A stretch of DNA of 64,000 nucleotides from Limimonas halophila (lineage in GTDB: Bacteria > Pseudomonadota > Alphaproteobacteria > Kiloniellales > Rhodovibrionaceae), in the NCBI RefSeq assembly GCF_900100655.1, contig NZ_FNCE01000005.1, forward strand, positions 62,001 through 126,000. Direction: 5' to 3'. Shown piece by piece: positions 33,642-64,000 of this stretch (position 1 is the stretch's first letter; every line of letters starts with the position of its first letter). The notes beneath the pieces were generated by a model. It was given only the letters and a program-made list of their open reading frames with translations. It ran no database searches and had not been told where the DNA came from. A program made the translations under genes and the position numbers.

Positions 33642-34580
33642 ATGACCGCCAGCCAGGACGCCCTGATCGAGCGCTTCCTGGAGATGATGGCGGGTGAGCG
33701 TGCGGCGGCCGACAACACCCTCGCCGCCTACGGCCGCGACCTGCGCGACCTTGCCGGGTTCCTGGCCGCGCGCGGCGAGTCGCTAGCGGGGGCGGACGCG
33801 GGCGCGATCCGCGCCTACCTCGCCGACCTGCACGCGCAGGGGCTGGCGGAGCGCACGGCCGCCCGGCGCATCGCCACGCTGCGGCAGTTCTACGGCTTCC
33901 TCTACGCCGAGGGCTGGCGCGCCGACGACCCCGCCCAGGCGCTGGACAGCCCCACGCCCAAGCGCCCGCTGCCGAAGGTGCTGGGCGAGGACGAGGTCGA
34001 CCGCCTGCTCGCCGAGGCGCGCGCGCTGGAGGGGCCGCGCGGCCTGCGCCTCGCCGCGCTGGTGGAATTGCTCTACGCCACCGGCCTGCGCGTCAGCGAA
34101 CTGGTCACGCTGCCGGTGCGCGCGGCCCGGCGCCGCTCGGACACCCTCGTGATCGAGGGCAAGGGCGGCAACGAGCGCATGGTCCCCATCAACCAGCCGG
34201 CGCGCGACGCCCTCGCCGCCTACCTGCCGCTGCGGCCCAGCTTCCTGCCGCCCGGCGCGGACGCGGGCTGGCTGTTCCCCTCGCGGACGTCGCGCTCGGG
34301 CCACCTGACGCGCGACCGCGTGGCGCAGCTGCTCAAGGACCTGGCGGTGCGCGCCGGCATCCACCCCGACCGCGTCTCCCCGCACGTCGTCCGCCACGCC
34401 TTCGCCACGCACCTGCTCGCCAACGGCGCCGACCTGCGCTCGCTGCAGCAGATGCTGGGCCACGCCGACATCTCCACGACGCAGATCTACACCCACGTCC
34501 TCGACGCGCGCCTGAAGGAGCTCGTGACCGAACGCCATCCCCTTGCGCGGGGGCTGACGAATCTGACCCGAGGCGGCTAA
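33642..34580 (+). CDS. xerD: Site-specific tyrosine recombinase XerD
   Basis: 312-residue phage-integrase-type recombinase that resolves chromosome dimers at dif with XerC. N-terminal SAM-like core-binding domain ('NTLAAYGRDLRDLAGFLAARG'), then the catalytic domain with Arg ('LYATGLRVSEL'), Lys ('GKGGNERMVPI'), 'HVVRHAFATHLLANGADLRS' (HxxR) and Tyr in 'TQIYTHV'. 'SPHVVRH' replaces the usual 'SPHVLRH', a conservative change. No integrated element is adjacent, so this is the housekeeping enzyme. Confidence 0.93.
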   Translation: MTASQDALIERFLEMMAGERAAADNTLAAYGRDLRDLAGFLAARGESLAGADAGAIRAYLADLHAQGLAERTAARRIATLRQFYGFLYAEGWRADDPAQALDSPTPKRPLPKVLGEDEVDRLLAEARALEGPRGLRLAALVELLYATGLRVSELVTLPVRAARRRSDTLVIEGKGGNERMVPINQPARDALAAYLPLRPSFLPPGADAGWLFPSRTSRSGHLTRDRVAQLLKDLAVRAGIHPDRVSPHVVRHAFATHLLANGADLRSLQQMLGHADISTTQIYTHVLDARLKELVTERHPLARGLTNLTRGG

Positions 34581-34612
34581 AACGCGGCGGCCCGCCACGA
34601 GAGGTCTTCAAA

Positions 34613-35599
34613 ATGAGCCACACGCCCGTCCAGCCCGCGCCCGCGCGCCTCAACCGCAGCGAACTCGCCGTTCCCGGCAGCAACGCCAAGATGCTGGAAA
34701 AGGCGGCCAGCAGCGCCGCCGACGTCCTCTTCCTCGACCTGGAGGACGCCGTCGCGCCGGACGACAAGCTCCAGGCGCGCAAAAACATCATCGAGGCGCT
34801 GAACACCGTCGACTACGGCGAGAAGACGGTGTCCATCCGCATCAACGGCCTCGACACCCACTACATGTACCGGGATCTCGTCGACATCCTGGAGCAGACG
34901 GGCGAGCGCCTGGACCTCGTGATGATCCCCAAGGCGGGCACGGCCGCCGACGTCTACGCCGTGGACATGCTGGTCAGCCAGCTGGAAGCCGCCACCGGCC
35001 GGCAGAAGCGCCTGGGCTTCGAGCTGCTGATCGAAACCGCGCTGGGCATGCAGAACGTCGAGGCCATCGCCGCCGCCTCGTCGCGCAACGAAAGCCTGCA
35101 CTTCGGCGTGGCCGACTACGCCGCCTCCACCGGCATGCGCGTGACCACGATCGGCGGCCCCAACCCCGCCTACAGCGTGCTCACCGACACCCTGGCCGAC
35201 GGCTCGCGCCAGACCCACTGGGCTGACATGTGGCACTACGCCATCGCGCGCATGGTCGTCGCCGCGCGCGCCAACGGCCTGCGCCCCATCGACGGCCCCT
35301 TCGGCGACGTGCAAGACAGTGACGGCTTCCGCGCCCAAGCCCACCGCGCCAGCGTGCTCGGCTGCGAGGGCAAGTGGGCCATCCATCCCGCCCAGATCGA
35401 GCTGGCGAACGAGGTCAACACGCCCGACGACACCGCCGTCCAGCACGCCCGCCGCATCCTCGACGCCATGGCCGAAGCCCAGCGCGACGGCCGCGGCGCC
35501 GTCACCCTCGACGGCCGCATGATCGACGCCGCCTCCGTCCGCCAGGCCCGGCAACTCGTGGAGAAGGCGGATCGCATCAACAAACAGGAGGCTGTTTGA
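34613..35599 (+). CDS. mcl: L-malyl-CoA/beta-methylmalyl-CoA lyase
   Basis: 328-residue HpcH/HpaI-family CoA ester lyase. 'RSELAVPGSNAKMLEKAASS', 'DVLFLDLEDAVAPDDK' (catalytic Glu/Asp), 'ELLIETALGMQNVE' (metal Glu) and 'GKWAIHPAQIELANEV' match the Mcl group that cleaves malyl-CoA to glyoxylate and acetyl-CoA or makes methylmalyl-CoA in the ethylmalonyl-CoA pathway. Its product glyoxylate links to glcDEF. Distinct from citrate lyase beta by length and motifs, but the exact subclass is a call by similarity. Its stop codon lies between the arms of two repeat hairpins. Confidence 0.88.
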   Translation: MSHTPVQPAPARLNRSELAVPGSNAKMLEKAASSAADVLFLDLEDAVAPDDKLQARKNIIEALNTVDYGEKTVSIRINGLDTHYMYRDLVDILEQTGERLDLVMIPKAGTAADVYAVDMLVSQLEAATGRQKRLGFELLIETALGMQNVEAIAAASSRNESLHFGVADYAASTGMRVTTIGGPNPAYSVLTDTLADGSRQTHWADMWHYAIARMVVAARANGLRPIDGPFGDVQDSDGFRAQAHRASVLGCEGKWAIHPAQIELANEVNTPDDTAVQHARRILDAMAEAQRDGRGAVTLDGRMIDAASVRQARQLVEKADRINKQEAV

Positions 35600-35675
35600 C
35601 AAACTGACAGGCAGTTTGACCCCATCTGTCACTCGACACCGGCGTCTCGCGGCACTGAATGGGTCCCTCACGACC
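35582..35675. repeat. Hairpin-core repeat element, copy B (3' of malyl-CoA lyase)
   Basis: Two hairpins in tandem: AAACAG-GAGG-CTGTTT (35582-35597), ending just before the last stop base, and CAAACTG-N5-CAGTTTG (35600-35618), then the core GTCACTCGACACCGGCGTC (35628-35646) and the linker GAATGGGTCCCTCACGACC (35657-35675). Same architecture as copies A, C and D although the stem sequences differ. DNA turns AT-rich about 170 bp downstream. Confidence 0.85.
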
Positions 35676-35844
35676 GGCTGTACGTTCCGGCAGACCACGA
35701 AAAATGGTACAGATCGGATGCAAACCGAGAATCACGGCGCGGATAGCCGCAACGGTGTTCGACCGTTACGGCGTAGGAAAGTCGGCCCCAAACCCTCATG
35801 GCCGTGCTTGTCACGGCCATCCACACCTGTTCCCGAAAAGACGT

Positions 35845-37050
35845 GAGATGCTGTAATCTTACATGGTCTTCCATATGTCATATACTCAACACTAGGTTTC
35901 GTTTAGTTTGGGGCTCATCAATTAATAACGTCGATCCTGCATGGAATCATGGTGGAAAAATGCCCTACTGTATATACAGCAAAAACAGGATCTACAACGA
36001 TTCTCACGACAGTACATACAAAGCCTCAAAAGAACATATTATACCCAGATCTATTGGGGGAAGCAATAAATTTGTAACATTCGATGTAAGCGCAAAGTGT
36101 AATAACGATTTAGGCTCTAGCATAGATGCATCTTACTTAAAAGATCCAATTGTAAGTATGGCAGCAAATCAAATTGGACTGAGTGATCTTGATCTGTCTG
36201 TCTTTTCAACCGGGAGCGGGAAAAATGCTAAATTCAAGGTAGACAAAAGCGGTCAGGTCCATACTGAGTTTAAGCTGGATGTTAACACTGAATATCGCGA
36301 AAGATATAATATTGAAGAAATATCGGGACCGAGAGATGAAGTAGAAAAAGTTATTTTGGGAAAAATAAATAAAAGTGGTAAAAAAATGTTTGATGGGGAC
36401 GGGAATCCGATAGAGAATCTCGAACAAGCACGTCTATCGTGCAAAATTCAACAAGAAAGTCATTTTCAAGGATCTATTTCCGTAGATTTTATATCACATA
36501 TTCAAATGATGTCCAAAATATTGTTGGGCTCAGGACATTTATTATTTGAAAAAGAATGGACGTTTAGCAACAACGGTGATTTTTTACGCAATATTTTGAA
36601 CGACCGTGGGGCAGCTTTAACATTTTGGCAACAACAAAAAGGTATAAAAGATGGCCTAAAAATGGCGAACACCGTATTAGATCAAAAGGAAAAAGAGCAG
36701 AAATGTCATCTTATTATATTTTTGCCATCTCATGGAAATTTGTACGCATGCGCGGGCCTTTTTGGAGGGTTTGTCCCATCATTTGTTTTTAATCTTGGTA
36801 AATTTAAAGAAAGTTTCCTCGAAGGCTGCCAAGCTCATTGTAATTCGAGCGCCGAATCGACAACCGATCCCACGCCAAAAGTAGGGTACAAAATTTTTCC
36901 TCTTGATGGAAGCGTTGAGTCAATAACATTACTAAAATTATATGACGCAATGAATAAAGTGTAATATAGTAAAGTTAATATAAATAATTAAGTAAAAGTA
37001 GTTTGATCGATACAAACGTTGCTTTGTTCTTTCAGGCTTTTGTATTTACT
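35845..37050. mobile_element. AT-rich island of foreign-looking DNA
   Basis: Base composition changes abruptly near 35845 from strongly GC-rich to strongly AT-rich and back near 37050. Inside is one gene (HNH-like, 35960-36964) with codon use (many AAA, AAT, ATT, TTT) unlike any neighbour. The left edge follows repeat copy B; the right edge cuts into the 3' end of a regulator gene (37046). No integrase, terminal inverted repeats or target duplication were found by eye. The 35676-35959 stretch before the gene holds no supportable ORF. Confidence 0.7.
35960..36964 (+). CDS. HNH endonuclease-like protein on AT-rich island
   Basis: 334-residue protein. The N-terminal 60 residues resemble HNH_5-type nucleases: 'YCIYSKNRIYND', 'KEHIIPRSIGGSNKF' and 'AKCNNDLGSSIDASYL'. 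The first zinc pair is CxxS instead of CxxC, so metal binding may differ or be lost. The remaining 270 residues match nothing I recognise. ATG 35960 has GGTGG five bases upstream and is preferred to the long in-frame extension from 35798. It could be a stand-alone defence nuclease or a selfish gene; no methylase or partner accompanies it. Codon use marks recent acquisition. Confidence 0.75.
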   Translation: MPYCIYSKNRIYNDSHDSTYKASKEHIIPRSIGGSNKFVTFDVSAKCNNDLGSSIDASYLKDPIVSMAANQIGLSDLDLSVFSTGSGKNAKFKVDKSGQVHTEFKLDVNTEYRERYNIEEISGPRDEVEKVILGKINKSGKKMFDGDGNPIENLEQARLSCKIQQESHFQGSISVDFISHIQMMSKILLGSGHLLFEKEWTFSNNGDFLRNILNDRGAALTFWQQQKGIKDGLKMANTVLDQKEKEQKCHLIIFLPSHGNLYACAGLFGGFVPSFVFNLGKFKESFLEGCQAHCNSSAESTTDPTPKVGYKIFPLDGSVESITLLKLYDAMNKV

Positions 37051-37501
37051 TTGGAACCCCACCCAACGTCGCCTCGACGAGCCGCCGCAGGGAGGCGTTC
37101 GCGCCGGTAGGTTCGGTGCGCCAGAGGCGGAGCAGGGATTCGAGGGCGCGGGCGTCGGCGGGCAGGGGTGTGAACATCGCCGGGTCGCGCGGCCAGTCCG
37201 TGGGGCCGAAAAGCACGTCGATGAAGGCGTCGGGTTCCACATCGCACGCGCGCAGCAGCCGCCCGGCGTAGCGGGTCGGCACGCCGTCGCAGGCGGTTTC
37301 GAACGCCGCCACGCGCGCCAGGGAAAAGCCGGTCCGCCGCGCCGCCGCACGCCGCGACAGCCCGGCCACGTCCGCCCGCATCCAGCGCACGCACCACGCC
37401 ACCCGCTCGCGTTCGGCCGGGACCGGTGCGCTTGCGCCCGCGCGCGGCACCAGCCCGCCAAGCCGCACCGGCCACCCGCGCTGATCCAGTGTGTCACCCA
37501 T
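37046..37501 (-). CDS. HTH (XRE-like) regulator, 3' end in AT-rich DNA
   Basis: 151-residue GC-rich gene. Residues 50-95 form a Cro/CI-like HTH ('RRAAARRTGFSLARVAAFETACDGVPTRYAGRLLRACDVEPD'). The protein ends 'LGGVPK' at a TAA located just inside the AT-rich island boundary, so the original C-terminus may have been replaced by the insertion. Divergent from a second XRE gene at 37641 across about 140 bp. Target unknown. Confidence 0.65.
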   Translation of the reverse strand: MGDTLDQRGWPVRLGGLVPRAGASAPVPAERERVAWCVRWMRADVAGLSRRAAARRTGFSLARVAAFETACDGVPTRYAGRLLRACDVEPDAFIDVLFGPTDWPRDPAMFTPLPADARALESLLRLWRTEPTGANASLRRLVEATLGGVPK

Positions 37502-37640
37502 ATCAAAACTGCTCTGGTTTCTGAATCGGTGTACGAGCGAACCGTACTATGACTCACACACCAACTAAAAGAGGGTTGAGCGCCGAATACGATTTTGCAT
37601 ATGTGTCGGCTTCATCGCCGCGTCGGCACGCTCCGCCGCG

Positions 37641-38024
37641 ATGGCGAAGCGGCGCAACACCAAGACGCAGCGCGTGTACGACGTTCAGCGCATGCTGGGC
37701 GTGCGCATCCAGGAACTGCGCAAGGTCGGCGGCTACGGTCAGGAAAAGCTCGCTGAAGCCGCGGGCGTCGAGTCCCAGACTCTCTCGCAGTACGAAACGG
37801 GCAAGACCGCGCCCAGCCTCACCACGCTGGTGCACCTGGCGGACGCGTTGGGGCAGCCGCTGGAGGAGTTCTTCCGCTTCGACGAGCTGCCCCGCCACGA
37901 CACCGAACACCGCCGCGCCCAGCGCAAGCTCGTCCAGACCGTCCACGACCTCGACGCCGACACCGTCAAGCTGCTCACCAAGTTCGCCCGGTTGATGGGC
38001 CGGCAGCGCGCGCGACGAGAGTAA
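37641..38024 (+). CDS. XRE family transcriptional regulator
   Basis: 127-residue DNA-binding protein with an HTH at about residues 20-75: 'IQELRKVGGYGQEKLAEAAGVESQTLSQYETGKTAPSLTTLVHLADALG' is a typical HTH_3. The C-terminal 45 residues are helical ('VQTVHDLDADTVKLLTKFARLMG'), probably for dimerisation. Probably controls itself and/or its divergent neighbour. The genes next to the AT-rich island may be part of its regulatory circuit, but this is speculation. Confidence 0.88.
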   Translation: MAKRRNTKTQRVYDVQRMLGVRIQELRKVGGYGQEKLAEAAGVESQTLSQYETGKTAPSLTTLVHLADALGQPLEEFFRFDELPRHDTEHRRAQRKLVQTVHDLDADTVKLLTKFARLMGRQRARRE

Positions 38025-38291
38025 CCCTCTCGCGGCGCCTGCCGAGCGAACCCGCCGCTTTTGTCGGCATCACCCCGCATTGGTGCTTGACCTTCCAGCA
38101 AGCGGAAGGCCGACCGTGGCGCATGAAGGTGCATCCGGATGCGTCCGGGCAGCGTGCCGCCCGGCCGGTCCGGTGCATCCGGGGTAGCGCCGCACCCGCC
38201 GGTTTGCTCGCGGGGGCGCAGGGCTTTCACGCTGTTTCGGCGCGCAGCCGGAGGCATGGCCTCGGTTCAGATTATCGAAAGGAGAACGGCG

Positions 38292-39032
38292 ATGACGTTT
38301 GCAACACGCACCCTGCGCGCCGCGCTGGCCGCCACGGTGATGGCCGGCGGACTGGCCCTGTCCCCGCTCGCCCAGGCCGACGACGACCGCCACGGCCAAG
38401 GCATGATGCAGGGGAAGATGGACCGCGACGAGATGCGCGAGATGATGCGGAACATGGACCCCGACCAGCGGCGTCAGATGATGCGGTCCATGCGCGGCCA
38501 GCGCTCGGGCATGATGGGGCAGCAGGGCGGCCCCGGCATGATGATGAGTGGCTCCGGCATGATGCGCGGGCAGATGATGGGCCCAGGTATGATGGGCGGC
38601 ATGGGTATGATGGGCCAATCCGGCATGATGGGCCCGGGCATGATGGGTCAGTCCGGGATGATGGGCCCCGGTATGATGGGCGGCTCGGGTATGATGGGGC
38701 CCGGCATGATGAGCGGCATGGGCATGATGGGGCCTATGATGGGCGGCGGCATGATGGGTCCCGGCATGATGCAGGGGCTCAGCGACGAGAAGCAGGCCGA
38801 GCTGACCGAAATGCGCCAGGACATGCGGCGCCAGCACATGGAAGCCATGCTCGACATGATGGCCATCCGCGACGAGATGCAGCAGGCCATGGTGGCGGAC
38901 CGCCCCGATCCCGCCCGCATCCGCGAGCTTCACGACCGCATGGCCGAGCGCCACGGCAAGGCGCTGGAAGCCCGCATCGAAATGCACAACCAGATGCGGG
39001 ACTTCATGGACACGCTTCAGGACGAGCAATGA
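38292..39032 (+). CDS. Met-rich periplasmic protein with Spy/CpxP-like C-terminus
   Basis: 246-residue exported protein. The signal peptide (1-30, '...ALSPLAQA') precedes a region of about 125 residues made of GMMG/SGMMGPGMMG-type repeats with dozens of Met, and a C-terminal helical domain ('KQAELTEMRQDMRRQHMEAMLDMMAIRDEMQQAM') resembling the LTXXQ chaperone family. Met clusters bind Cu(I) in known periplasmic copper proteins, so copper buffering is plausible, as is a stress chaperone role. Start at ATG 38292 with AGGAG seven bases upstream. It stands alone; 38025-38291 upstream has no gene. Confidence 0.85.
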   Translation: MTFATRTLRAALAATVMAGGLALSPLAQADDDRHGQGMMQGKMDRDEMREMMRNMDPDQRRQMMRSMRGQRSGMMGQQGGPGMMMSGSGMMRGQMMGPGMMGGMGMMGQSGMMGPGMMGQSGMMGPGMMGGSGMMGPGMMSGMGMMGPMMGGGMMGPGMMQGLSDEKQAELTEMRQDMRRQHMEAMLDMMAIRDEMQQAMVADRPDPARIRELHDRMAERHGKALEARIEMHNQMRDFMDTLQDEQ

Positions 39033-63730: not shown

Positions 63731-63787
63731 GGGCAGGCTGAAACATGAGGATGTTTCATCCCGTCAGTCAGTCGACACCGGCGTCTG
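63726..63787. repeat. Hairpin-core repeat element, copy D (3' of sdhB)
   Basis: CCTG-AGGG-CAGG (63726-63737, over the stop) and GAAACAT-GAGG-ATGTTTC (63740-63757), then the core GTCAGTCGACACCGGCGTC (63768-63786). The linker is only partly kept (GAGATGAAGG). Downstream the sequence turns AT-rich to the window end; 63800-64000 shows no ORF I would support. Confidence 0.8.
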
Positions 63788-64000
63788 GCTGAGATGAAGG
63801 TGCCTATCTTGGGAAAGGTATCGATAATGTGCATTGTGAAATGCGCGACTTTGCGCCGATCATAGATACTTAATTGGGTTAAAAGTTTTTCTGTGTTGGG
63901 TTTTCGGCATGATGTCCTCTGCTGATTCTTTCCATCGTTGGACTCCACGGCTCGAACAGTCACGTGCACGCATTCGGTTCGAGCAATATCATAATGAGTT

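Follow-up and report, generated by a model that had tools for sequence, protein, structure and literature searches.

HNH_5 nucleases and the island gene of Limimonas halophila

A passage of PMC7370490 lists HNH_5 (PF14279) among the abundant functions of integron cassettes, and HNH genes in defence islands are the subject of a passage in PMC10799925. In the literature searched we found no functional study under the name HNH_5 or PF14279. The motif CxxC...[DE]H...CxxCN was present in all 30 best-scoring HNH_5 matches of the class (matches were found in 212 of 289 genomes), a sample that is biased towards canonical members because it was taken by score. The same motif occurred in two further HNH_5 proteins of similar length to the one described here, L012 and the HNH endonuclease of Acidiphilium multivorum plasmid pACMV5 (L032:3380-4384). 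On pACMV5, a small mobilizable plasmid, the HNH_5 gene lies near a multiubiquitin/E2/ThiF cluster, an ImmA/IrrE protease and a recombinase. PDC-S73, a single-gene defence candidate of PADLOC, is of another type, with an Mrr-type nuclease and an nSTAND3 ATPase and not HNH.

The gene described here lies in a 64,000-nucleotide stretch of L. halophila contig NZ_FNCE01000005.1 (positions 62,001 to 126,000), referred to below as the window. It occupies positions 35960..36964 on the plus strand, as determined from its open reading frame and the Pfam match, and encodes 334 aa from an ATG at 35960, a start that agrees with the alignment to the Bradyrhizobium protein introduced below. Residues 20-60 (36017..36139, plus strand) matched HNH_5 with an E-value of 2.7e-8 and 34.1 bits, above the Pfam cut-off of 27.5, and the [DE]H and CN/NN motifs stand in the same order as in the family. 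The catalytic core [DE]H...N is present as EHIIP and NN. In contrast to the CxxC...CxxCN of the family, the protein reads CxxS...SxxC, and it carries a long C-terminal domain outside Pfam. A preliminary description of this DNA, made from the letters alone, had recognised an HNH-type N-terminus with CxxS in place of the first CxxC, and the Pfam match and the sequence CIYS bear this out; the second pair, SAKC, is altered too, so that the usual four zinc cysteines, a set that the Pfam score does not require, are incomplete. The pACMV5 protein resembles the window protein in its HNH_5 N-terminus and its length of 334 aa; it differs in its full set of zinc cysteines, and only its residues 2-71 align. 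In profile comparisons both L012 and L032 aligned with the window protein through the N-terminus only.

Relatives that extend beyond the N-terminus were found in Bradyrhizobium. In a plasmid search the N-terminus matched two plasmids of Bradyrhizobium (49% identity over 53 residues), of which one is mobilizable and the other conjugative. In both, the relative is split into two frames by a frameshift (L010:4956-6049 and L011:2956-4049) with identical accessions, WP_208089749.1 and WP_208089750.1, and the downstream frame aligned with the C-terminus of the window protein in a single comparison (29% over 152 positions, E 6e-11). In the GTDB contigs the full-length window protein matched nothing, and the HNH block used as query matched one intact homologue, a 360-aa protein of Bradyrhizobium diversitatis (L020:7971-9053), which showed 26% identity over 296 aligned positions covering window residues 2-280. 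About 1 kb upstream of it lies a gene that we take to be an IS110-type transposase. The Bradyrhizobium genes share the two-part architecture of the window gene and have likewise lost zinc cysteines, their pairs reading CIYT/SLKA and CIYT/SLVA (CxxT...SxxA); all three distinct proteins, that of the window and the two from Bradyrhizobium, retain EH and NN. They differ from it in 9 extra N-terminal residues (L020) and in the split frames of the plasmid copies. The L020 protein scored below the HNH_5 cut-off (20.9 against 27.5) and matched no PADLOC model. The HNH_5 sub-family of the window protein is rare, little studied, zinc-poor and unusual, and the event that brought the gene here is ordinary in kind.

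The C-terminal part had been described as 270 residues without recognisable homology. This holds for Pfam, which assigns no family; since the Bradyrhizobium proteins align with this region, however, it is a conserved domain and no orphan. The conserved part comprises about 110 residues (approximately aa 170-283; 36467..36808, plus strand), with the motifs KI.LG.GH...EWT...G..LR and LFGG. It is absent from Pfam, NCBIfam and PADLOC, and in PHROGs has one weak match (E 0.16). For the protein as a whole, PADLOC-DB 2.0.0 models gave no family at E-values up to 10, NCBIfam gave only a sub-threshold Cas9d match (14.1 bits against 375), and phrog_35254 (function unknown) matched via the N-terminus (E 4.9e-5), with two further weak PHROGs matches (E 0.06 and 0.16). 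A PDB sequence search returned only peptide deformylases (E 0.086-0.093), which we took as chance, and AlphaFold2 run on two sequences gave a mean pLDDT of 29.7, too low for a usable model.

The AT-rich island, its flanks and its absence from relatives

The gene lies in an AT-rich island (35859..37051) delimited by composition and by the end of an HTH gene, with approximately 36% GC in a window of approximately 70% GC. In a scan of 500-bp bins, GC was 0.362 in 36001-36500 and 0.352 in 36501-37000; of the remaining bins only two did not exceed 0.6, one spanning the left edge (0.538) and the final one of the window (0.544). In 50-bp steps it fell from 0.58 to 0.36 at about 35850 and rose from 0.34 to 0.68 at about 37050. 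GC3 was 0.32 in the HNH gene, compared to 0.94, 0.87 and 0.91 in the three neighbours measured, and the codons ATA, TTA and AAT, present in the HNH gene, had a frequency of 0.000 in the neighbouring citE. The sharp switch at both edges and the single-gene content claimed in the preliminary description were thus confirmed, the latter by the open reading frame list, as were the adjoining repeat, of which the left edge has two (rep1 and rep2), and the coincidence of the right edge with the 3' end of the HTH gene.

The 160-bp stretches taken at the two edges had no word of 8 or more bases in common, direct or inverted, and two common 7-mers were seen where 1.6 were expected. An insertion sequence or transposon with a target-site duplication or terminal inverted repeats was rejected because of the missing edge words and of the lack of a second gene. 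A weak promoter-like site (9/12) lies at the left edge (35858..35886, plus strand), one of 6 in the region, where shuffled sequence gave 3.4 on average (sd 2.1), and the HNH gene may be transcribed from it, within the island.

The HTH gene at the right edge (37046..37501, minus strand, 151 aa) appears intact except for its last codon and stop, and the edge was set at this AAG TAA end. Together with four paralogues in the genome (L023-L026) it makes up a family of 5. The paralogues showed 64, 55, 43 and 36% identity, in alignments reaching residues 145-150 of 151. The window protein ends in ATLGGVPK, the closest paralogue in STLDNAPA and the second in AMLDRVSA, these two stopping one and two residues past the last aligned residue, while the other two run 11 and 25 residues longer. 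Since its two closest paralogues stop at almost the same point, the regulator was most probably not truncated by the island, contrary to what had been proposed; judged from these alignments, it is most probably intact, and only AAG TAA looks island-derived. There is a slight chance that a tail of 11-25 residues, as in the two more distant paralogues, was lost. Among 57 other relatives, the HTH family gave one weak match only, with internal stop codons.

On the left, the island is flanked by the two repeats and then by an HpcH/HpaI (CitE-like) lyase gene (34613..35599, plus strand), which is syntenic in all five relatives examined. It is preceded by a tyrosine recombinase gene (33642..34580, plus strand), presumably XerC/D-like, which lies outside the island and is a conserved citE neighbour in relatives. 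Further left come what we take to be a shikimate kinase/dehydroquinate synthase pair and a large hypothetical gene, in the same order in relatives. The recombinase, citE and at least one further gene on the left were kept in 5/5 relatives, and the HNH gene was absent from every one of these. None of the right-hand open reading frames of the window matched beside citE in the stretches fetched from the five. Two contigs (G001 and G004) end 0.3 and 1 kb past citE, G011 and G004 have in common a gene after citE that is presumably substrate-binding-protein-like, G011 and G008 have another gene in common, and G002 has other genes. Since no single arrangement after citE is conserved, the exact empty site cannot be read off. 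The empty-site comparison proposed earlier therefore succeeded for the left flank, which is syntenic without the gene, and failed to find the site itself; the 58 relatives include no second genome of the genus.

We searched for the protein in 58 relatives and 385 genomes of the class, two overlapping sets. At an E-value of 0.001 each set gave a match in one genome only, L. halophila itself, leaving 57/57 other relatives and 384/384 other class genomes without a match. Vertical inheritance of the same region in relatives, named at the outset as the observation that would speak against an insertion, was thus not seen. A scan of the phylum at E 0.1 gave matches in 6 of 398 genomes. Apart from L. 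halophila, these were two matches to the HNH domain (G560 and G617) and three that were weak and short (G469, G210 and G562, in frames of 58, 112 and 178 aa). When the class was searched with the C-terminal frame from Bradyrhizobium, 3 of 385 genomes matched at E 0.01, one of them L. halophila. Two were rejected, since one falls on a presumably S5-like ribosomal gene (G212) and the other contains a stop codon and overlaps other genes (G220). Neither the window protein nor its Bradyrhizobium relatives matched any of 50,697 phage records, and scans of viral contigs gave no relative of the HNH protein. Taken from sequence comparison, the view that a foreign single-gene island was gained horizontally, between a rep2 copy and the 3' end of the HTH gene, is well supported. 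It rests on the composition, the absence of the gene in the relatives searched, the syntenic left flank without it, and relatives associated with plasmids and a transposase.

Proposed function and the other AT-rich islands

We infer nuclease activity, metal binding, a target, a defence role and a mode of insertion for this gene, the nuclease step from the HNH core. The protein would be a stand-alone HNH endonuclease, in which the HNH_5 fold keeps its Glu-His and Asn-Asn core and half of the zinc cysteines have been lost, and its C-terminal domain may be the part that senses the target or binds DNA. It would most likely cut invading DNA, acting as a one-protein barrier. That the gene is a horizontally acquired stand-alone HNH nuclease, probably directed against foreign DNA, is a joint reading to which we give an even chance of being right.

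The defence function is plausible on circumstantial grounds, since five more AT-rich islands were examined in the genome and PDC-S73 is encoded in one of them, a HEPN gene in another. The islands on contig 1 were seen in a search for runs of 15 A/T, which gave 103 forward matches; places were listed in contig 1 (C1) only, and the stretches around them were inspected. The gene at C1:466805-469099 (L110:6806-9100) encodes Mrr_cat and nSTAND3 domains and matched PDC-S73 with an E-value of 1.6e-164; like the HNH gene, it stands alone as an AT-rich gene on a chromosome rich in GC. The island at the right end of the window (63753-64000 and L122:750-3012) lies just after a rep1 copy (63753-63789) and encodes a 298-aa RiboL-PSP-HEPN protein (E 9.7e-13), whose best PADLOC E-value of 0.031 is not convincing; it also carries a second gene of mixed composition. 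Two other islands, C1:230656-231468 and C1:245737-246651, hold genes that look membrane-like by eye and have no Pfam match above the cut-off, and the gene at C1:463378-463797 encodes 140 aa outside any Pfam family, beside a rep2 copy (C1:463190-463373). Thus, three of the six islands examined, that of the window included, carry nuclease-type genes, and three have no defence signature in Pfam or PADLOC. Two further loci from the A/T search (L107 and L111) contained no comparable island, or small AT-rich patches only.

The same islands bear on the rival account that stands up best, in which the gene is cargo without a defence role, taken up at random, inactive or serving another function in DNA metabolism, and tolerated in an intergenic gap beside a repeat. 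Half of the islands hold membrane-like or small proteins without a Pfam (above cut-off) or PADLOC match, relatives of the HNH gene are rare, and the plasmid copies are frameshifted. The window protein has lost zinc cysteines, and from its sequence this could mean that it is inactive; other HNH enzymes work without zinc. Against this account, the 334-codon frame is intact despite its foreign composition, and at only 26% identity the homologues still share the EH...NN core and residues of the C-terminal part, which indicates selection in the family. We regard the cargo account as unlikely, and prefer an acquired nuclease acting on foreign DNA, although the lack of a PADLOC match for the gene or its Bradyrhizobium homologue and the lack of a relative among the 50,697 phage records count against that preference.

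Repeats at the left edge and the mode of insertion

Two repeats lie between citE and the island. The first, rep1 (approximately 35614..35676, plus strand), is short and dispersed; the genome has at least 51 more matches to it, a count obtained from 56 matches by leaving out the window and four rep2 places, with 40 of 54 candidates scored. The second, rep2 (35705..35858, plus strand), is a structured palindrome of 154 nt that abuts the island. Six aligned copies, 154-210 nt in length, have an outer stem that covaries and an inner hairpin that varies. In the outer stem 96.6% of cells are paired over the six copies and 6/10 pairs are changed on both sides, values drawn from few, related sequences with the stem chosen on the same alignment. 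For the 15-pair structure, 0/500 shuffles reached the observed paired percentage or covariation score, and slid controls were 30-46% paired.

A covariance model built from the six copies found 10 places in the L. halophila genome (G000), three of them only 92-135 nt long: the window copy and C6:563-720, C7:117619-117811, C4:68446-68604, C1:472987-473195, C1:463190-463373, C22:2824-2982, C11:24902-25036, C3:108097-108188 and C3:77448-77545. A weak DNA match at C7:13376 falls outside this set, the filters being strict. Of the 57 other relatives, the model matched a single one, and there only in part. Rfam had no match at E 1 in window positions 34500-38500, and at E 5 over four loci with rep2 copies it gave five matches, none of which overlaps rep2. 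A HEARO/OMEGA (IscB-IsrB) system, which we take to be defined by a HEARO RNA match together with a RuvC-HNH protein, was considered because rep2 is a structured element upstream of an HNH gene, and was rejected: rep2 has no Rfam match, Pfam shows HNH_5 only, and the Cas9d score is far below threshold.

The position of rep2 raises the question of whether the island moved as a cassette, of integron type or recognised through a hairpin, for which rep2 served as recombination site. The island starts where rep2 ends, the outer stem covaries, and an AT-rich island with a single gene likewise adjoins a second copy, C1:463190-463373, which has sub-family letters in common with the window copy (by eye). 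That second case was found by following rep2 and amounts to one success in nine further places, so it is only suggestive; 8/10 rep2 places have no adjoining AT-rich island, and the two islands do not lie on the same side of rep2 or in the same orientation to it. Nor does the right edge of the window island have a rep2. A simple R-box scan of 35550-37250 found no attC-like pair at the edges and, within the gene, a single pair whose cores do not match, and an integron gene cassette was rejected on this result. A cassette of either type is a distinctly unlikely explanation.

A wider version, which we regard as a long shot, has hairpin elements (rep2, perhaps rep1) serving in this lineage as docking or recombination sites that capture single foreign AT-rich defence-type genes one by one, a scattered chromosomal counterpart of an integron that would do without attC and have the HNH protein as one cargo. 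Of the six islands, three adjoin rep1 or rep2 directly or with only a few bases between, and the other three are not so placed.

A selfish, free-standing homing endonuclease that spreads by cutting empty sites would also account for a solitary nuclease gene with sharp edges and a sporadic distribution. Set against this, the gene lies between genes and not within a conserved one, its relatives occur in unrelated contexts, and the 160-bp edges have no word of at least 8 bases in common; we consider homing improbable. From the initial suggestion of a solitary defence or selfish nuclease captured at a repeat, horizontal capture beside a repeat stands, the selfish role gained no support, and PADLOC offered no defence assignment. 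A native, vertically inherited gene of unusual composition is hardly credible, since its chromosomal location is all that was found in its favour and against it stand a GC3 of 0.32 and its absence, at E 0.001, from all 57 other relatives and 384 other class genomes.

Under the preferred reading of a horizontally acquired nuclease, the gene, if active, would represent an HNH_5 nuclease with an incomplete zinc knuckle and a C-terminal domain outside the family libraries searched, and a candidate for a one-gene barrier to foreign DNA. Repeat-linked capture is a hint worth a genome-wide test. Since one- or two-gene AT-rich islands stand out in it, the L. halophila genome is a useful place to study the capture of single genes.
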